DNA of 64,000 nucleotides, taken from contig NZ_KB446646.1 in the NCBI RefSeq assembly GCF_000340375.1, positions 251,958 through 315,957 of the forward strand, written 5' to 3'. The notes under the pieces are model-generated. The model saw only the letters and a program-made list of their open reading frames with translations, was not told the DNA's origin and ran no database searches. The stretch comes from Eggerthia catenaformis OT 569 = DSM 20559 (GTDB lineage: Bacteria > Bacillota_I > Bacilli_A > Erysipelotrichales > Coprobacillaceae). Of the stretch, positions 9,167 through 63,162 are shown in pieces. Positions within the stretch are counted from its first letter, which is position 1. Every line of letters begins with the position of its first letter. The position numbers and the translations under genes are program-made.

Positions 9167-10344
9167 TGTTTATCCATCATTTTAAATACTCTTTAAAAAT
9201 CCTTTTTAGAAATAAAATACTGATTTTCTGGATTTTCTCTTTTCCTATTATTCTTGCAACATTTTTCAGTATGGCTTTTTCTAATATAGAAAAAGGAGAA
9301 AAACTTAATCTTATTCATATTGCGATTATTAATAATAAAGATTTCAATCAGAATACTTTATTTAAAGATTCATTTAAAGAAATGAGTAATAAAAATAGTA
9401 AGAATAGATTATTTATTATTGATTATACAACCAAAGATCAAGCTGAACAGTTGTTAAAAGATGATAGGATTATAGGTTATCTTAATCTTATTAATGATGA
9501 TCCTCGGCTGACTTTTAAAAGCAGCGGTATTAATGAAACAATATTCAAATATGTAACAGAAGAAGTATCTCAGACTTATAATATAGTTAAGAATCTCTCT
9601 AAGAAAGAGATTGAAAAAGAAATATCTTCAGGTCATTATCAGATTGATTATCAAAAGATTAGTCATAAGGTTCAAAGTCTTATTCATACTGATGTGAAGA
9701 TTAAAGATAAATCAAAAAAGAATTTAAGCTATATAGTTATTGAATTCTATTCTTTAATTGCTATGTCATGTCTAATGGGAGGTTCATTAGTCATTGCTTC
9801 GTTAGATAATAATCTTCCTCAGATGTCATCTCAAGGAAAAAGAATTGCGATTGCGCCTGTTAAGAAAGCCGGGCTATTATTAAGTAGCCTGTTTGCCGGT
9901 TATATTACTCAATTAACAGGATTATTACTCTTATTTGTCTATACAATCTTTGTTTTAAAGGTTAATTATGGAAGTAATCTTGGACTTATTGTCTTATTAA
10001 GTATTGCCGGCAGTCTGGCAGGTCTTTCTTTAGGAATGGCTATTGCGGTTGTTTCTAAAGGAAACAGCAGTTTTAAATCATCTCTGCAAATATCAGTTAC
10101 AATGTTAGGATGCTTTTTTGCAGGTATGATGGGAGTGACTACAAAGTACTTTATTGATAAGAATATTCCTATTATTAATATGTTAAATCCGGCAGGTATG
10201 ATTACAGATGGCTTTTATTCATTATACTATTATGATACATTACATCGCTTCTTCTTTAATCTGATGAGTTTATTGGCTTTTTCACTTATTCTTATTATTA
10301 TCTCTATTATCGTTTTAAGGAGACAGAAATATGACAGTATTTAA
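9166..10344 (+). CDS. ABC-2 type transporter permease
   Basis: Membrane subunit (392 residues) with one N-terminal helix, a large extracytoplasmic domain (about residues 40-195) and a C-terminal block of five or six helices, the standard ABC-2/YhgE-like layout. It pairs with the ATPase just upstream, whose TAA overlaps this ATG by one base, and with the second permease downstream. Substrate unknown; drug, lipid or peptide export is typical of the family. Confidence 0.85.
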   Translation: MFIHHFKYSLKILFRNKILIFWIFSFPIILATFFSMAFSNIEKGEKLNLIHIAIINNKDFNQNTLFKDSFKEMSNKNSKNRLFIIDYTTKDQAEQLLKDDRIIGYLNLINDDPRLTFKSSGINETIFKYVTEEVSQTYNIVKNLSKKEIEKEISSGHYQIDYQKISHKVQSLIHTDVKIKDKSKKNLSYIVIEFYSLIAMSCLMGGSLVIASLDNNLPQMSSQGKRIAIAPVKKAGLLLSSLFAGYITQLTGLLLLFVYTIFVLKVNYGSNLGLIVLLSIAGSLAGLSLGMAIAVVSKGNSSFKSSLQISVTMLGCFFAGMMGVTTKYFIDKNIPIINMLNPAGMITDGFYSLYYYDTLHRFFFNLMSLLAFSLILIIISIIVLRRQKYDSI

Positions 10345-11479
10345 AGCATTTCTCAAGATTATTAATAAAAATAAAATGATTATCTTGCTTTATACAGTTT
10401 TATTAATTGTTTTTGGTGTACTTAATGCTCGTTCAAGTAATCCTAATACTGTCTTTCAGTCAAGCAAGCCTGATGTTATGATTGTGAATAGAGATCAGAA
10501 TAAGGGAATGACTAAGAACTTAATAAATTATTTATCTAAGCATTGTCATATAGTTCATCTTAAAGATGATGAAAAAGCCATTAATGATGGATTATTTTAT
10601 CGTGAAATTAATTATGTTGCTTATATTCCAAAAGGATATCATCAGGAGTTTATGAAAGGACATCATTTAGAACTGTCAGTAAAAAGTACAAATGATTACC
10701 AGGCTTCATTAGCAAAGCTAATACTGACAAGATATTTAAAAACTGCTGATATTTATGCTAAAAGTATAACTGATGAAAAAGAATTAATTAAAAATATTAA
10801 TGAAACATTATCAAAAACCTCAAAAGTTAATATAATTTCTAAAATAGATACCGATAAGCTCTCACAGGTAAGTTTTTATTATAACTTTGCCAGCTATAGT
10901 ATATTAGCTTGTCTGATTTATGTTATTTCTCTGATAATTTATGGCTTTAAGAAACCGGAAGTACGAAAAAGGATATTAATCAGCAGTATCAATTATAAGA
11001 CATTTAATAGACAGCTTCTTTTATCTAACTGTTTGTTTGCTTTTATGATCTGGCTTATCTATGTGGGTATGAGTATGATGATATTAGGTAAAGTTATGTT
11101 AAGTTTATCCGGCCTATTATATATACTCAATTCATTTATCTTTACTTTTACTGCGACTGCAATTGCCTTTTTTATAGGACAGATCGTCTTTAATAAGAAT
11201 GTCATTAATGGTGTTGTTAATGTTGTGGCATTGGGATCAAGTTTCTTATGCGGAGCATTTGTACCGGTCAGATTATTACCGGAGAATGTCTTAAAAATAG
11301 CACATATTCTGCCATCTTATTACTTTATTAACAGTAATGAATTATTAAGTAAAATAGAAACCGTTAATCTGCAAACAATCTACCCTCTTTTAATCAATAT
11401 ACTGATTCTCTTATTATTTGCTTTGTTTTTTATAATCCTTACAAATATTATCACTAGAAAGAAAAGAAAGATTAATTAA
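10331..11479 (+). CDS. ABC-2 type transporter permease
   Basis: Second membrane subunit (382 residues) of the same exporter, with the same topology: N-terminal helix, long soluble loop and a C-terminal multi-helix block (SSFLCGAFVPVRLLPE is a typical ABC-2 stretch). It overlaps the first permease by 14 bases, with an AAGGAGACAG ribosome binding site inside the upstream gene. The two permeases probably form a heterodimer. Confidence 0.85.
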   Translation: MTVFKAFLKIINKNKMIILLYTVLLIVFGVLNARSSNPNTVFQSSKPDVMIVNRDQNKGMTKNLINYLSKHCHIVHLKDDEKAINDGLFYREINYVAYIPKGYHQEFMKGHHLELSVKSTNDYQASLAKLILTRYLKTADIYAKSITDEKELIKNINETLSKTSKVNIISKIDTDKLSQVSFYYNFASYSILACLIYVISLIIYGFKKPEVRKRILISSINYKTFNRQLLLSNCLFAFMIWLIYVGMSMMILGKVMLSLSGLLYILNSFIFTFTATAIAFFIGQIVFNKNVINGVVNVVALGSSFLCGAFVPVRLLPENVLKIAHILPSYYFINSNELLSKIETVNLQTIYPLLINILILLLFALFFIILTNIITRKKRKIN

Positions 11480-46127: not shown

Positions 46128-46892
46128 ATGAAGAAGAATTATCATACTCATACAATCAGATGTCATCATGCGATAGGAACAGAAGAGGAGTATATTCATC
46201 AAGCGATAGATGCCGGATTTGAATTACTGGGATTCTCTGATCATACACCTTGGCATTATGAATCAGGATTTCATCCGATTATGCGTATGGAAGAATCACA
46301 GCTGGAAGATTATGTACATACCATCAGATCATTAGAACAGAAATATAAAGATCGAATTACTATTAAATGTGGTTTGGAAGCTGAATATTTCAGTGATAAA
46401 ATGCCTTGGCTTATTAATAAAACAAAAGAATATCAGATAGATTATTTAATACTGGGACATCATTATGATCAAAGTGATGAAACAGGGATGTATTATGGTT
46501 TTCCATTAAAGTCTTACAGTGAAGTAAAGAAATATACTGCACAGGTATTGGAAGCTATGGATACAGGATTATTTAGTTATTTAGCACATCCTGATGTTGT
46601 TATGTATCATCAGAAAGATAAAAAGAGTCTCTTAGAATTAGAAAAAATATGTATTAAGGCCAAAGAAATAGATATGCCCTTAGAATTTAATATGCTGGGT
46701 TATCTTACTAATAGGCATTATCCCAGTATTCCTTTTATAGACTTATGTAAAAAGCATCATAATAAGATTATTCTGGGAGTAGATGCTCATGATCCTTCAA
46801 TGCTTAATAATCAGAATACTTTTTTATTAGTAGAAAAGAAACTGAAAGAAGAAGGATTAGAAGTTACTGACGAGATTAAGTATTTAAGATAA
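46128..46892 (+). CDS. PHP-domain phosphatase, HisJ-like
   Basis: A 254-residue PHP-family metal hydrolase resembling histidinol phosphatase HisJ/HisK: N-terminal NYHTHTIRCHH metal motif, LGFSDHTPWH, GLEAEYF, ILGHHYD, LAHPDVV and the last ligand in GVDAHDP. No other histidine biosynthesis gene is nearby, so the substrate may be another phosphomonoester. It shares an operon with the PTH2 gene. Confidence 0.82.
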   Translation: MKKNYHTHTIRCHHAIGTEEEYIHQAIDAGFELLGFSDHTPWHYESGFHPIMRMEESQLEDYVHTIRSLEQKYKDRITIKCGLEAEYFSDKMPWLINKTKEYQIDYLILGHHYDQSDETGMYYGFPLKSYSEVKKYTAQVLEAMDTGLFSYLAHPDVVMYHQKDKKSLLELEKICIKAKEIDMPLEFNMLGYLTNRHYPSIPFIDLCKKHHNKIILGVDAHDPSMLNNQNTFLLVEKKLKEEGLEVTDEIKYLR

Positions 46893-46903
46893 AATTAATC
46901 TTA

Positions 46904-46933
46904 TTGTGAATGTATTGACTTATTAATTATAAT
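46904..46933 (+). promoter_or_regulatory. Promoter upstream of a possible leader peptide
   Basis: TTGTGA (46904-46909), an 18-base spacer and a perfect TATAAT (46928-46933). Transcription would start near 46940, giving about 180 bases of leader before the membrane protein gene. Confidence 0.55.
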
Positions 46934-46990
46934 GTGAGATTATTTCTTTAATAGAAAGGGTTTTCAAAGATATTTTAAAAGGTGGAGATT

Positions 46991-47062
46991 ATGAATACTA
47001 GTAGAGTTCTTTTATTTGAGGTACTGCTCTGTTTTTCTGTAGTGTGTCTATATAGAGCCTAA
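46991..47062 (+). CDS. Possible 23-residue leader peptide
   Basis: A short frame, MNTSRVLLFEVLLC then FSVVCLYRA and stop, sits behind a good AGGTGGAG ribosome binding site. It is strongly hydrophobic with an Arg near each end, like regulatory leader peptides or small membrane peptides. Its stop codon is inside a stable hairpin (47045-47087). The next gene, a small membrane protein, starts 57 bases later. I do not recognise it with certainty; function is inferred only from architecture. Confidence 0.5.
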   Translation: MNTSRVLLFEVLLCFSVVCLYRA

Positions 47063-47087
47063 AATTTGTTTTTTAGGAATATAGACA
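47045..47087 (+). promoter_or_regulatory. Hairpin overlapping the leader-peptide stop
   Basis: TGTCTAT (47045-47051) pairs with ATAGACA (47081-47087) and CCTAAAA (47058-47064) with TTTTAGG (47071-47077). A ribosome finishing the leader frame would open the lower stem. No T run follows, so it is not a plain terminator. Confidence 0.55.
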
Positions 47088-47118
47088 TATTCAGCTAATA
47101 GAAAAGGAGGTTAATTAT

Positions 47119-47385
47119 ATGAATAAGAAGAATTATTTATATCATTTCTTTTTTGAAAAAATAGAGAAACCACGACATGTTAAAGTTATACTAGCTATAT
47201 TAACAGTATTTATAATCTTTTGCCTGGTATTTTCAATTGTAGCTTATATAAATCCGGACTATCATATATCACCAGTATTATTTATTGTGATTCTTTGTTT
47301 TCCATTTTTTGCTCTTTTGACTTTAGTTTTTCTTTTATCTAAGTCAATCGAATATGATTACAAGAAGTATATGAAAGATAAATAG
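47119..47385 (+). CDS. Small membrane protein of unknown function
   Basis: 88 residues with two hydrophobic helices (about 22-45 and 52-74), a basic N terminus and a charged C-terminal tail (SIEYDYKKYMKDK). The N-terminal F-F-F-E-K-I-E-K-P-R stretch is probably cytoplasmic. AAAGGAGG gives a strong ribosome binding site. It is expressed behind the possible leader peptide and ends in a terminator. I recognise no family. Confidence 0.65.
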   Translation: MNKKNYLYHFFFEKIEKPRHVKVILAILTVFIIFCLVFSIVAYINPDYHISPVLFIVILCFPFFALLTLVFLLSKSIEYDYKKYMKDK

Positions 47386-47398
47386 ATTTTTTAATCAG

Positions 47399-47428
47399 AG
47401 GATTGCCTTTAAGCAATCCTTTATTTTT
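47399..47428 (+). terminator. Intrinsic terminator
   Basis: AGGATTGC and GCAATCCT form an 8-bp stem with a 6-base loop, then a T-rich tail. It isolates the leader/membrane-protein unit. Confidence 0.85.
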
Positions 47429-47499
47429 TATAAAATTAAGTATTTAAGATAGTCAAGAAAGAATCTTTTGATTATAATGATAATACAGGAGGACTTTTT

Positions 47500-47766
47500 A
47501 TGGATCATATTACAGAAATTGATAAAGAACCTTATTTTGATCATTGTCTTGAACTGGTAAAAGAAATAATGAAAGAACAGAATTACTCTCTTTTAGAAGA
47601 AGAATATAAAGATTTAACTATAGAAATTATGGATACATCTGTCTTTTCGGGAGGAGATTATGATGATGAAAATATTATATTTTATGCGAATGAATATATT
47701 AAAAATAATTTTCTATCAAGATTTAAAATGATCAGAGATAAGGATGTGAATCCTAGTGACTATTAA
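47500..47766 (+). CDS. Uncharacterised acidic protein
   Basis: 88 residues, rich in Glu and Asp, predicted mostly helical with no membrane segment (MDHITEIDKEPYFDHC onward). ACAGGAGGAC is a good ribosome binding site. Its end overlaps the start of the next unknown gene by 11 bases, so the two are likely coupled and may act together. I do not recognise it. Confidence 0.65.
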   Translation: MDHITEIDKEPYFDHCLELVKEIMKEQNYSLLEEEYKDLTIEIMDTSVFSGGDYDDENIIFYANEYIKNNFLSRFKMIRDKDVNPSDY

Positions 47767-48970
47767 TAAAGAAACTATTGAGAGATATCAACAGGAGCAT
47801 CCTCATAAGAAGAAAGGGAAATATAAATTTAAATGTGCTTATCGCAGTAATGAATCGGAGTTTAAGTGTATTTATTATATTATTGATGATACTTTAAGGA
47901 CAGCAGAAATCTTTGTAGATATTAATATTACTGATGAGATAGATGTTAAGTTTTCGGAAAAGATTAGTCAGGATGAAAAGGATTGTATTATTGATAATAT
48001 ATTAGATCTTATTTTATTAAGAGAACAGTATCCATCACTATTACATTATTCATTGTATTCTCAATATATTGAATCATCCGATAGAGAAACTTTTTCTTTA
48101 TTACCGATGGATTATATGGATATCTTAGGATATATTAAATATCATCAGGGGATTAGTCAGAAGACCATTGATTTGTTTTATGATATTTTCATGCCTGCTA
48201 TTAATAGATTAAAAGATGATAAGAAATATAAGAATTATTTAGCTTCAATAGTTTTGTTGTTTAATACTATTAATTATACATATGAGTGGAATTCATCGCA
48301 TACTAATTATTTAGATTCTGAATATCAATATCATCTTTATTACTTAAGAGTTATTTTAAAAGACTTTTATTCATTGATAGATGATTTTTATGAAGCGGCA
48401 TCTGATGAAACATTTATGATTATAGAGAATCTTTGTCTAAATCCACGTTTTGCTTTATTTATTATGGTTGATTATATCAAAAATCTTTTAAAGCCCTCAG
48501 AAAACCAAGATGCTCTTTATCAGATGCTTAAAAATAAATATCATTTTAGTGATGATAAAGAAGATAAAAATTATAATCTGATTTATGCTTATTTATCTGC
48601 GATCTATAGACAGAATCATGAAAAGTATAGAATAACAGTTAAAGAAATACTAAGAGAAGTTATCAAGGTTGGTATTACTTATGTAAATTATGACTTAGAT
48701 CTTGCTTTAGGAAATGCTTTCTTAAAAAGTGAAGGTCATGAATTACTGATAGATATTTTTGAAGAAGATTATAATACTTTCTTATTTAATGTATTTACTA
48801 TTGAATCTTTGCCGGAAGAGTTAAAAAATGAAGTCAGAGAGAAGCTGTGTCAGGCAGTTGTCTTTTTTGCCGGCAGAATGGATAATGAGAAGTTTAGGAT
48901 GAGTTCATTAGAACAGATTACTAATATTAATAGGCTATTATTAGATAATTATCGGGGGTGGTATCAATGA
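47756..48970 (+). CDS. Uncharacterised 404-residue protein
   Basis: A soluble, mostly helical protein starting at GTG 47756 (an AAGGATG element lies upstream). The first 25 residues are basic (EHPHKKKGKYKFK) and the rest is acidic and tyrosine-rich, with no membrane helices or recognised catalytic motif. It is sandwiched between the 88-residue acidic protein and an alpha/beta-hydrolase-fold protein, with an ATGA stop-start overlap to the latter. No function is offered. Confidence 0.7.
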   Translation: MTINKETIERYQQEHPHKKKGKYKFKCAYRSNESEFKCIYYIIDDTLRTAEIFVDINITDEIDVKFSEKISQDEKDCIIDNILDLILLREQYPSLLHYSLYSQYIESSDRETFSLLPMDYMDILGYIKYHQGISQKTIDLFYDIFMPAINRLKDDKKYKNYLASIVLLFNTINYTYEWNSSHTNYLDSEYQYHLYYLRVILKDFYSLIDDFYEAASDETFMIIENLCLNPRFALFIMVDYIKNLLKPSENQDALYQMLKNKYHFSDDKEDKNYNLIYAYLSAIYRQNHEKYRITVKEILREVIKVGITYVNYDLDLALGNAFLKSEGHELLIDIFEEDYNTFLFNVFTIESLPEELKNEVREKLCQAVVFFAGRMDNEKFRMSSLEQITNINRLLLDNYRGWYQ

Positions 48971-61893: not shown

Positions 61894-63162
61894 TTATTTA
61901 ATGACATCAATGAGAACAATTTCATTGATTAAAGTATTATTTTCAAGATGGTATCTATTAATTCCTTGATATTTTGAAATAATGTCATTAATGATATATA
62001 AGCCTATACCATGATGAATAGGATCATTCTTAGTTGTTTGCTTTTCTTTGATAGGAGCAAGATCAAAATCTTCCGGAATACTATTAGAAATAGTAATAGA
62101 GAAAGAATGAATCATATTTTTAAGATGGATAGATACTATTTTTTGTGGTGTTTTTAAAGCAGACTCACAGGCATTAGAGATAAGATTATAGAATAATGAA
62201 CTTAATTCACTAACTGGAATATTAATATAACCTATAATATCATCTGACAAAGAAAGATTTAATTGAGGATATTTGTCTGTAAAGTAATTAAAGATACTAT
62301 CAATATACTGATTAGATGATACTTTTGTATAATGAATAGTATGATGAGTCGTTTTTTGAAGATAATCATTTAATGCATCATTATCATTGTTTTTTATCAG
62401 TGTTTGTATTGTAAGCATCTGGGACTGATAATCATGTTTAAACTTGCGTAAATCCTCATTATTTTTGATAATAGACTCAATATATTGATTTTGAATAGTA
62501 CTGTAAGCAAGTAAATCATTTTTCTTCTTTTCTTCTAATAATCTTTGATAATATTCTTTATTGTAAAGAAATAGAATAAAAATAATTATGATAATAAATA
62601 AAAATATATAAATAAAGGTATTAATAATATTGTCTGTATTAAATAGAGAGTTATTATCGCTATAAATAAGATAAAATAAGAATAGAGAAGACATGAGCGT
62701 TAGGAGAATAAGAAAGCGATTGGTATAACGAACTTTATATATTTTATTAAGAATAAGGTTTAGTAAGAGAAATAATAAGAATACTAATACTGATAAAATA
62801 GAACTTGTGGAGATGAAAGAGTTATTGATGATTTCTATATTAAGATAAGAGAATAAAATAATCATCATTAGATTTACAGAAGCTATAAGAATATAAGAAA
62901 AAACAAATTTTTTAAAAAATGATACTGATAAATGACCTTCCAGATATAAAAAGATAAAGAAGATAGAGATATTATTAAGAAAAGAAACAGGTACAGGCTT
63001 ATTAATGAGTAAAAGAAATAAGGTTAAAGATATGAAGAAAATAGCTATATGTTTTATTTTCTTAATATCAAATTTCTGATTAAAAAATGTATCTGAAATA
63101 ACCAGAATTGAAAGTATAATCATTAATTGTTCAGTTACTGAAGAAATAATAGTAATCATCAT
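61894..63162 (-). CDS. HPK10-type sensor histidine kinase (AgrC-like)
   Basis: 422 residues: six or so membrane helices (about 1-200), then a kinase domain with the HPK10 phospho-acceptor box FKHDYQSQMLTI (His near 245), N box LFYNLISNACESALK and G box HGIGLYIIND. This is the peptide-pheromone receptor kinase type. It overlaps the regulator gene by 4 bases. Its stop codon is only 39 bases from the right end of the IS element. The natural target is the bacteriocin operon. Confidence 0.9.
   Translation of the reverse strand: MMITIISSVTEQLMIILSILVISDTFFNQKFDIKKIKHIAIFFISLTLFLLLINKPVPVSFLNNISIFFIFLYLEGHLSVSFFKKFVFSYILIASVNLMMIILFSYLNIEIINNSFISTSSILSVLVFLLFLLLNLILNKIYKVRYTNRFLILLTLMSSLFLFYLIYSDNNSLFNTDNIINTFIYIFLFIIIIIFILFLYNKEYYQRLLEEKKKNDLLAYSTIQNQYIESIIKNNEDLRKFKHDYQSQMLTIQTLIKNNDNDALNDYLQKTTHHTIHYTKVSSNQYIDSIFNYFTDKYPQLNLSLSDDIIGYINIPVSELSSLFYNLISNACESALKTPQKIVSIHLKNMIHSFSITISNSIPEDFDLAPIKEKQTTKNDPIHHGIGLYIINDIISKYQGINRYHLENNTLINEIVLIDVIK

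Follow-up and report, generated by a model that had tools for sequence, protein, structure and literature searches.

What is a 23-codon hydrophobic open reading frame (ORF), with a hairpin across its stop codon, doing directly ahead of a gene for a small membrane protein, and what is that protein? Both questions are raised by a short unit in a 64,000-nucleotide stretch of the Eggerthia catenaformis OT 569 = DSM 20559 genome (contig NZ_KB446646.1, positions 251,958 to 315,957 of the forward strand; 'the window', whose numbering is used throughout unless another contig label is given). An initial annotation of this unit, made from the sequence alone, had likened its arrangement to translation-coupled attenuation and had recognised neither protein. 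Here, we consider the unit within its host genome (1.94 Mb, eight contigs) and against a set of genomes in which the order and the family are well sampled and the genus is represented by the source species alone.

The unit lies between a HisJ/PHP-like gene (46128–46892) and an 88-aa acidic ORF (from 47500) and consists, in this order and on the forward strand, of a promoter-like site, the 23-codon ORF, the hairpin, an 88-aa ORF, and a terminator. The promoter with a perfect TATAAT described initially is present as TTGTGA-18-TATAAT (46904–46933, with the predicted -10 element at 46928–46933); it scores 10/12 in a consensus scan, which measures resemblance and is not evidence of use, and an overlapping promoter-like site (TTGACT-17-GATTAT with TG) is also possible. 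The hydrophobic frame (MNTSRVLLFEVLLCFSVVCLYRA, 46991–47062) does have the good ribosome binding site (SD) attributed to it, AAGGTGGAG, upstream of the ATG at 46991, and ends in TAA at 47060–47062. Leader codons 13–17 (47027–47041) are complementary to the SD region of the main gene and form a candidate anti-SD; codons 18–23 and the stop lie in the hairpin (47042–47090). The remainder was also described correctly: a strong ribosome binding site (AAAAGGAGG upstream of the ATG at 47119, with the SD itself, AAAGGAGG, at 47103–47110), an 88-aa two-TM protein (47119–47385), and an intrinsic terminator with a 10-bp stem and a T-rich tail (47397–47422). An Rfam search of the window at the gathering score returned only a tRNA and no family at the leader or hairpin.

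The stability signal resides in the hairpin and not in the leader RNA as a whole: the hairpin has a folding energy of -17.7 kcal/mol (z -5.2), which none of 200 shuffles equalled, whereas the stability of the whole leader RNA is unremarkable (z -1.25). The stop codon is indeed inside the hairpin, and leader codons 18–21 make up its 5' arm, but the two nested 7-bp stems initially reported understate the structure. Seven base pairs is the length of the inner stem (CCUAAAA at 47058, UUUUAGG at 47071); the outer stem has 12–13 bp, with a perfect 9-bp core (UGUCUAUAU, 47045–47053, against AUAUAGACA, 47079–47087). This leader-plus-hairpin arrangement exceeds chance. In a scan of 1157 ATG-initiated small ORFs (15–40 aa, with an SD) on six contigs (C1–C6), which made no use of similarity to the leader, 120 had a stem of at least 9 bp across the stop, and 15 of those 120 were hydrophobic; the window unit has the longest stem of these 15, and a relative at 87.7 kb is level with one other ORF for second place. 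An identical 20-codon ORF, MSAHRILELKSVPRVGLFAH, whose stop is spanned by a 13-bp stem, occurs at seven contig-end positions (C1, C2, C4, C6); these ORFs are probably parts of rRNA operons at which the assembly breaks.

Three simple roles for the hairpin were rejected. Transcription attenuation fails because no U run directly follows the stem; as first noted, the hairpin lacks a T run, and a terminator scan calls neither this hairpin nor that of the relative, in which a T-rich stretch begins a few nucleotides 3' of the hairpin. The hairpin ends 16 nt upstream of the GGAGG of the main SD, and direct masking of the ribosome site by the hairpin alone is therefore impossible. Programmed frameshifting was set aside since, on reading the sequence, there is no in-frame slippery heptamer.

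The initial annotation had proposed looking for the short frame upstream of homologues of the membrane protein and for compensatory changes in the stems, and one other sequence supplies both. This second copy, on the same contig, is a 23-codon ORF (MENQFILFLGVILCFSLVMPISF, C1:87698) whose end is spanned by a hairpin (CAUGCCUAUAU paired with AUAUAGGCAUG; folding energy about -18 to -19 kcal/mol; z between -4.6 and -5.0). The two peptides are identical at 8 of 23 residues (35%), with LCFS-V common to both, a similarity score reached in 7 of 20000 permutations; both are strongly hydrophobic (best 15-residue mean 2.8–2.95). Synonymous codons specify five of the seven shared non-initiator residues, and identical codons the other two. 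The DNA of the two copies can be aligned from codon 11 through the whole 5' arm if a single 1-nt gap is placed immediately after codon 18. The frames differ beyond this gap, so that the last five residues are not comparable, while the stem arm still matches past it (TG(T/C)CTATAT against ATATAG(A/G)CA). Among the 11 stem pairs counted, two are changed on both sides in a compensatory manner, one is changed on one side, and none is broken, and sliding the partner arm abolishes the pairing. The arms were compared over hand-chosen stretches, a covariance model being precluded because MAFFT matched the hairpins to each other at the loops, and a covariation shuffle (114/500) is uninformative with two sequences. 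This comparison, of two readable copies in a single genome, suggests selection on the coding sequence of the leader as far as codon 18 and on the RNA stem beyond it.

The surroundings of the second copy bear on the identity of the 88-aa protein. Within its locus (L093, C1:78000–97500), the operon comprises the leader ORF, the hairpin, a strong SD, a 253-aa exported protein, a 90-aa ORF, and a terminator-like inverted repeat. Residues 45–249 of the 253-aa protein align to positions 6–197 of the 197-position NCBIfam model of the geobacillin-26 family (NF035925) at 19.7 bits (E 6e-4), below the curated cut-off of 40, and profile-profile comparison (hhalign) with that family gives a probability of 14%. 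The hallmarks of Geo26 and Ali24 are an N-terminal Sec signal and a C-terminal hydrophobic helix (PMC13176240); the 253-aa protein has MKKLRKYTLIILSAFLFLLTSNMHDAFA at its start and FAFPLITGGLGIPAAAAAVGAAFGVLY near its end, which we read by eye as a Sec signal and a C-terminal hydrophobic stretch. We assign it to the geobacillin-26 family in the sense that it may work like its members, and in that sense only. A further locus (L123, C4:62339–64374, minus strand) consists of two tandem operons, each with a geobacillin-26-like exported protein followed by a two-TM immunity candidate. The two exported proteins resemble the 253-aa protein in its C-terminal part, with 63% and 52% identical residues. 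The 5' parts of these operons fall in N runs flanked by identical sequence (C4:62966, 136 nt; C4:64239, 100 nt); leaders are likely there, though unseen, because the sequence immediately before the gaps matches that found upstream of the second copy. Reading of other Geo26 loci, in the order and on the Streptococcus plasmid pG271, showed a small hydrophobic ORF that overlaps or abuts the bacteriocin stop, and no leader plus hairpin.

The 88-aa protein belongs to a family of four paralogues within this one genome (84–96 aa, E 6e-47 to 4e-5). The 90-aa paralogue of the second copy's operon (C1:88623–88892) is about 24–25% identical to it (single-comparison E 9e-5), and a profile of these two recovered the other members, both on the minus strand (C4:62339 and C4:63639). 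Three of the four are each encoded immediately after a geobacillin-26-like gene, and only the window copy lacks an adjacent bacteriocin gene. In a single-sequence AlphaFold2 model of the 88-aa protein (mean pLDDT 76), two long helices follow a short N-terminal one. In the dysgalacticin system, the product of the adjacent gene, DysI, is a membrane-associated immunity factor (PMC8308785). By analogy of operon position and topology with DysI, and not by sequence similarity, the 88-aa protein is probably a stand-alone bacteriocin immunity protein, the putative target of protection being most likely the cell's own or kin bacteriocins. The protein that had gone unrecognised is thus explained, since the operon of the second copy ends in its paralogue.

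The likeness to known systems extends to the whole operon. DysA-DysI of Streptococcus dysgalactiae, geobacillin 26, and alicyclobacillin 24 likewise pair a Sec-type exported protein, about 210–253 aa long and hydrophobic in a C-terminal segment, with a small membrane protein encoded after it. The candidates described here (84–96 aa) differ in having no detectable similarity to the 61–63-aa proteins of the DysI type, and ORFs in the DysI position (61 aa in pG271, and others of 62–81 aa) align poorly even among themselves. Unlike these three systems, the units described here have a 23-codon leader with a hairpin, and the window copy has no bacteriocin gene.

Beyond this genome, searches of 315 genomes elsewhere in the order, a class sample of 394, GTDB contigs, and IMG/VR yielded no homologue; for the proteins, phages and plasmids yielded none either. 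A single-sequence search with the 88-aa protein (GTDB contigs, IMG/VR, phages, plasmids, and 148 relatives) gave nothing convincing, with no match at all in the plasmids searched; those weak matches outside the genome that were read proved to be fragments or parts of larger frames. Hits of a leader profile outside the genome were likewise rejected, being antisense to coding sequence or lacking the layout.

The position of the unit suggests an insertion. Both flanking genes are present in nearly all of the 42 other genomes of the family and are neighbours in most, and in these relatives a few hundred bases, mostly the counterpart of the acidic ORF, lie between them; here the distance is 867. 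A direct repeat of 17 nt without mismatch, ATTAAGTATTTAAGATA, flanks the unit, at 46875–46891 (the 3' end of the HisJ/PHP-like gene) and 47435–47451. The second copy is bracketed by a repeat of 33 columns with two single-base gaps (L093, about 9600–9631 and 10910–10941), and the C4 pair by a 53-nt repeat of about 90% identity (C4, about 64430–64470 and 62209–62262). Scores as high as those of the 17-, 33-, and 53-nt repeats were reached in 5, 0, and 0 of 1000 shuffles, respectively, and the lowest, that of the 17-nt repeat, in 7 of 2970 random genome pairs. The right-hand C4 repeat is at the start of an apparent T-box leader. The repeats differ in sequence from site to site and do not, therefore, represent one att site, which makes a single integrase acting on all copies unlikely. 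Mobile ends of the attC-like or palindrome-associated kind were also rejected, as the hairpin is internal and not at the cassette boundary. We tentatively regard 46892–47434 as an inserted, immunity-only cassette, a reading that is part of the overall explanation weighed below.

It is very likely that the leader and hairpin together are a real control module, whose mechanism is a prediction, and most likely that they form the 5' module of bacteriocin/immunity cassettes. The explanation that we favour, at slightly less than an even chance for the whole, is an immunity-only cassette with a translated, cis-acting leader that would set the translation of the next gene; its translation, pausing, regulation, and immunity components are what we infer, and the frame, the hairpin, the second copy, its similarity, and the operon context are what we observe. 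The cassette would be derived from, or built like, the bacteriocin operons elsewhere in the genome, with the leader and hairpin running straight into an immunity-type gene in place of a bacteriocin gene. The leader would be translated and act in cis. Its hairpin stem would meet the mRNA entry of the ribosome while the LCFS codons are at the decoding centre, and the ribosome should therefore slow there. Ribosome position at about codons 11–20 would then decide whether the hairpin and the anti-SD pairing form, and hence how well the next gene is translated.

The last of these steps was modelled as predicted accessibility of the main SD when codons 11–20 are blocked as by a ribosome, in comparison with 300 genes of the genome (140 nt upstream). 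Unblocked, the accessibility of the main-gene SD is ordinary for the genome. Blocking raises it from 0.30 to 0.78 in the window copy (+0.48, in the top 1.3% of genes) and from 0.50 to 0.55 in the second copy (+0.05, 24%). With a shorter folding window, the second copy responds from 0.10 to 0.55, so that the accessibility result depends on the folding window. The anti-SD duplex itself (codons 13–17 with the SD region) has -11.2 kcal/mol in the window copy, where 1% of shuffles are as good, and -6.8 kcal/mol in the second, where 16% are. Of the original proposal, the leader and hairpin ahead of a membrane protein stand, being found again in the diverged second copy; translation-coupled attenuation is plausible but only partly supported by the modelling, release of the SD being predicted for the window copy and not clearly for the second.

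These results weigh most directly on classical translational attenuation. The leaders of ermC, cat-86, and TnaC are short ORFs of 19–24 codons with an overlapping hairpin and the regulated gene directly downstream, and the layout here is the same. If the unit worked in the erm/cat manner, codons 13–17 would act as an anti-SD opened by a stalled ribosome, as the duplex and the SD opening of the window copy would lead one to expect. We consider this account unlikely, though a serious contender: the anti-SD pairing is clear in one of the two copies, the duplex of the second being unremarkable and its response larger only in the shorter folding window, and the leader differs from those of ermC, cat-86, and TnaC in having neither a known stall motif nor an antibiotic-resistance context, and a hairpin that does not itself include the next SD.

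Alternatively, the 23-residue peptide may itself be the product, as a single-pass membrane partner of the immunity or bacteriocin protein or as a small toxin, with the hairpin only an mRNA element. Type I toxins are encoded by short hydrophobic ORFs with good SDs, features shared by both leaders, whose peptides are exactly 23 aa long and keep their common residues through synonymous codons. Here, in contrast to such toxins, the stop is inside the hairpin and another gene is on the predicted transcript. The last five residues of the peptide are unconserved and the frame is shifted there while the RNA stem is kept, and the peptide precedes two different first genes, all of which makes a role as product improbable in our view, though not negligible. 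The peptide has no match in PHROG, Pfam, or NCBIfam, libraries in which such short queries rarely score.

A constitutive 5' stabiliser or RNase barrier of the transcript, one that senses nothing, would also fit the strong SD, which lies close to the predicted 5' end, and the hairpin of 13 bp, which leaves the next SD uncovered; this account we doubt considerably, as it leaves the conservation of LCFS-V by synonymous codons unexplained. Finally, the leader and hairpin could be a remnant without function, or their likeness only the product of recent cassette descent. The confinement of every copy to a single genome, and the resemblance of the cassette to a derivative that has no bacteriocin gene, would fit this account, which we consider very improbable: divergence is large (the peptides are 35% identical, the immunity proteins 25%), yet the frame length, stop position, pairing, and ribosome site are intact.

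The favoured reading, an immunity-only cassette with a cis-acting leader, would give a handle on immunity expression without the bacteriocin, and the translated leader and hairpin, standing before both a bacteriocin operon and a lone immunity gene, would constitute a directly testable regulatory element. The two-TM family, which has no matches in the libraries searched, would add a group of probable immunity proteins. As of a 2021 review, the regulation of plasmid-encoded class III streptococcal bacteriocins had not been elucidated (PMC8308785). Bolder, and rather unlikely, is the suggestion that the leader represents a new peptide- or ribosome-sensing class that controls class III bacteriocin immunity and forms the 5' module of cassettes that can insert, whether they encode a bacteriocin or immunity alone; its distinguishing feature would be that the conserved LCFS codons of the 23-codon hydrophobic leader are read as the ribosome collides with the hairpin.

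Some minor observations concern the neighbourhood of the unit. The acidic ORF (47500–47766) and the 404-aa protein encoded after it (47756–48970) have no clear match in Pfam, NCBIfam, or PHROG; of the 43 family genomes, 42 have the latter, and in most of them it is preceded by the HisJ-like gene and the acidic ORF. In two genomes of the family, the site downstream of the HisJ gene contains unrelated insertions (G015:C1:2434873-2435723, locus L074; G019:C9:8934-11264, locus L082), and because these differ, the site looks like an insertion hot spot.
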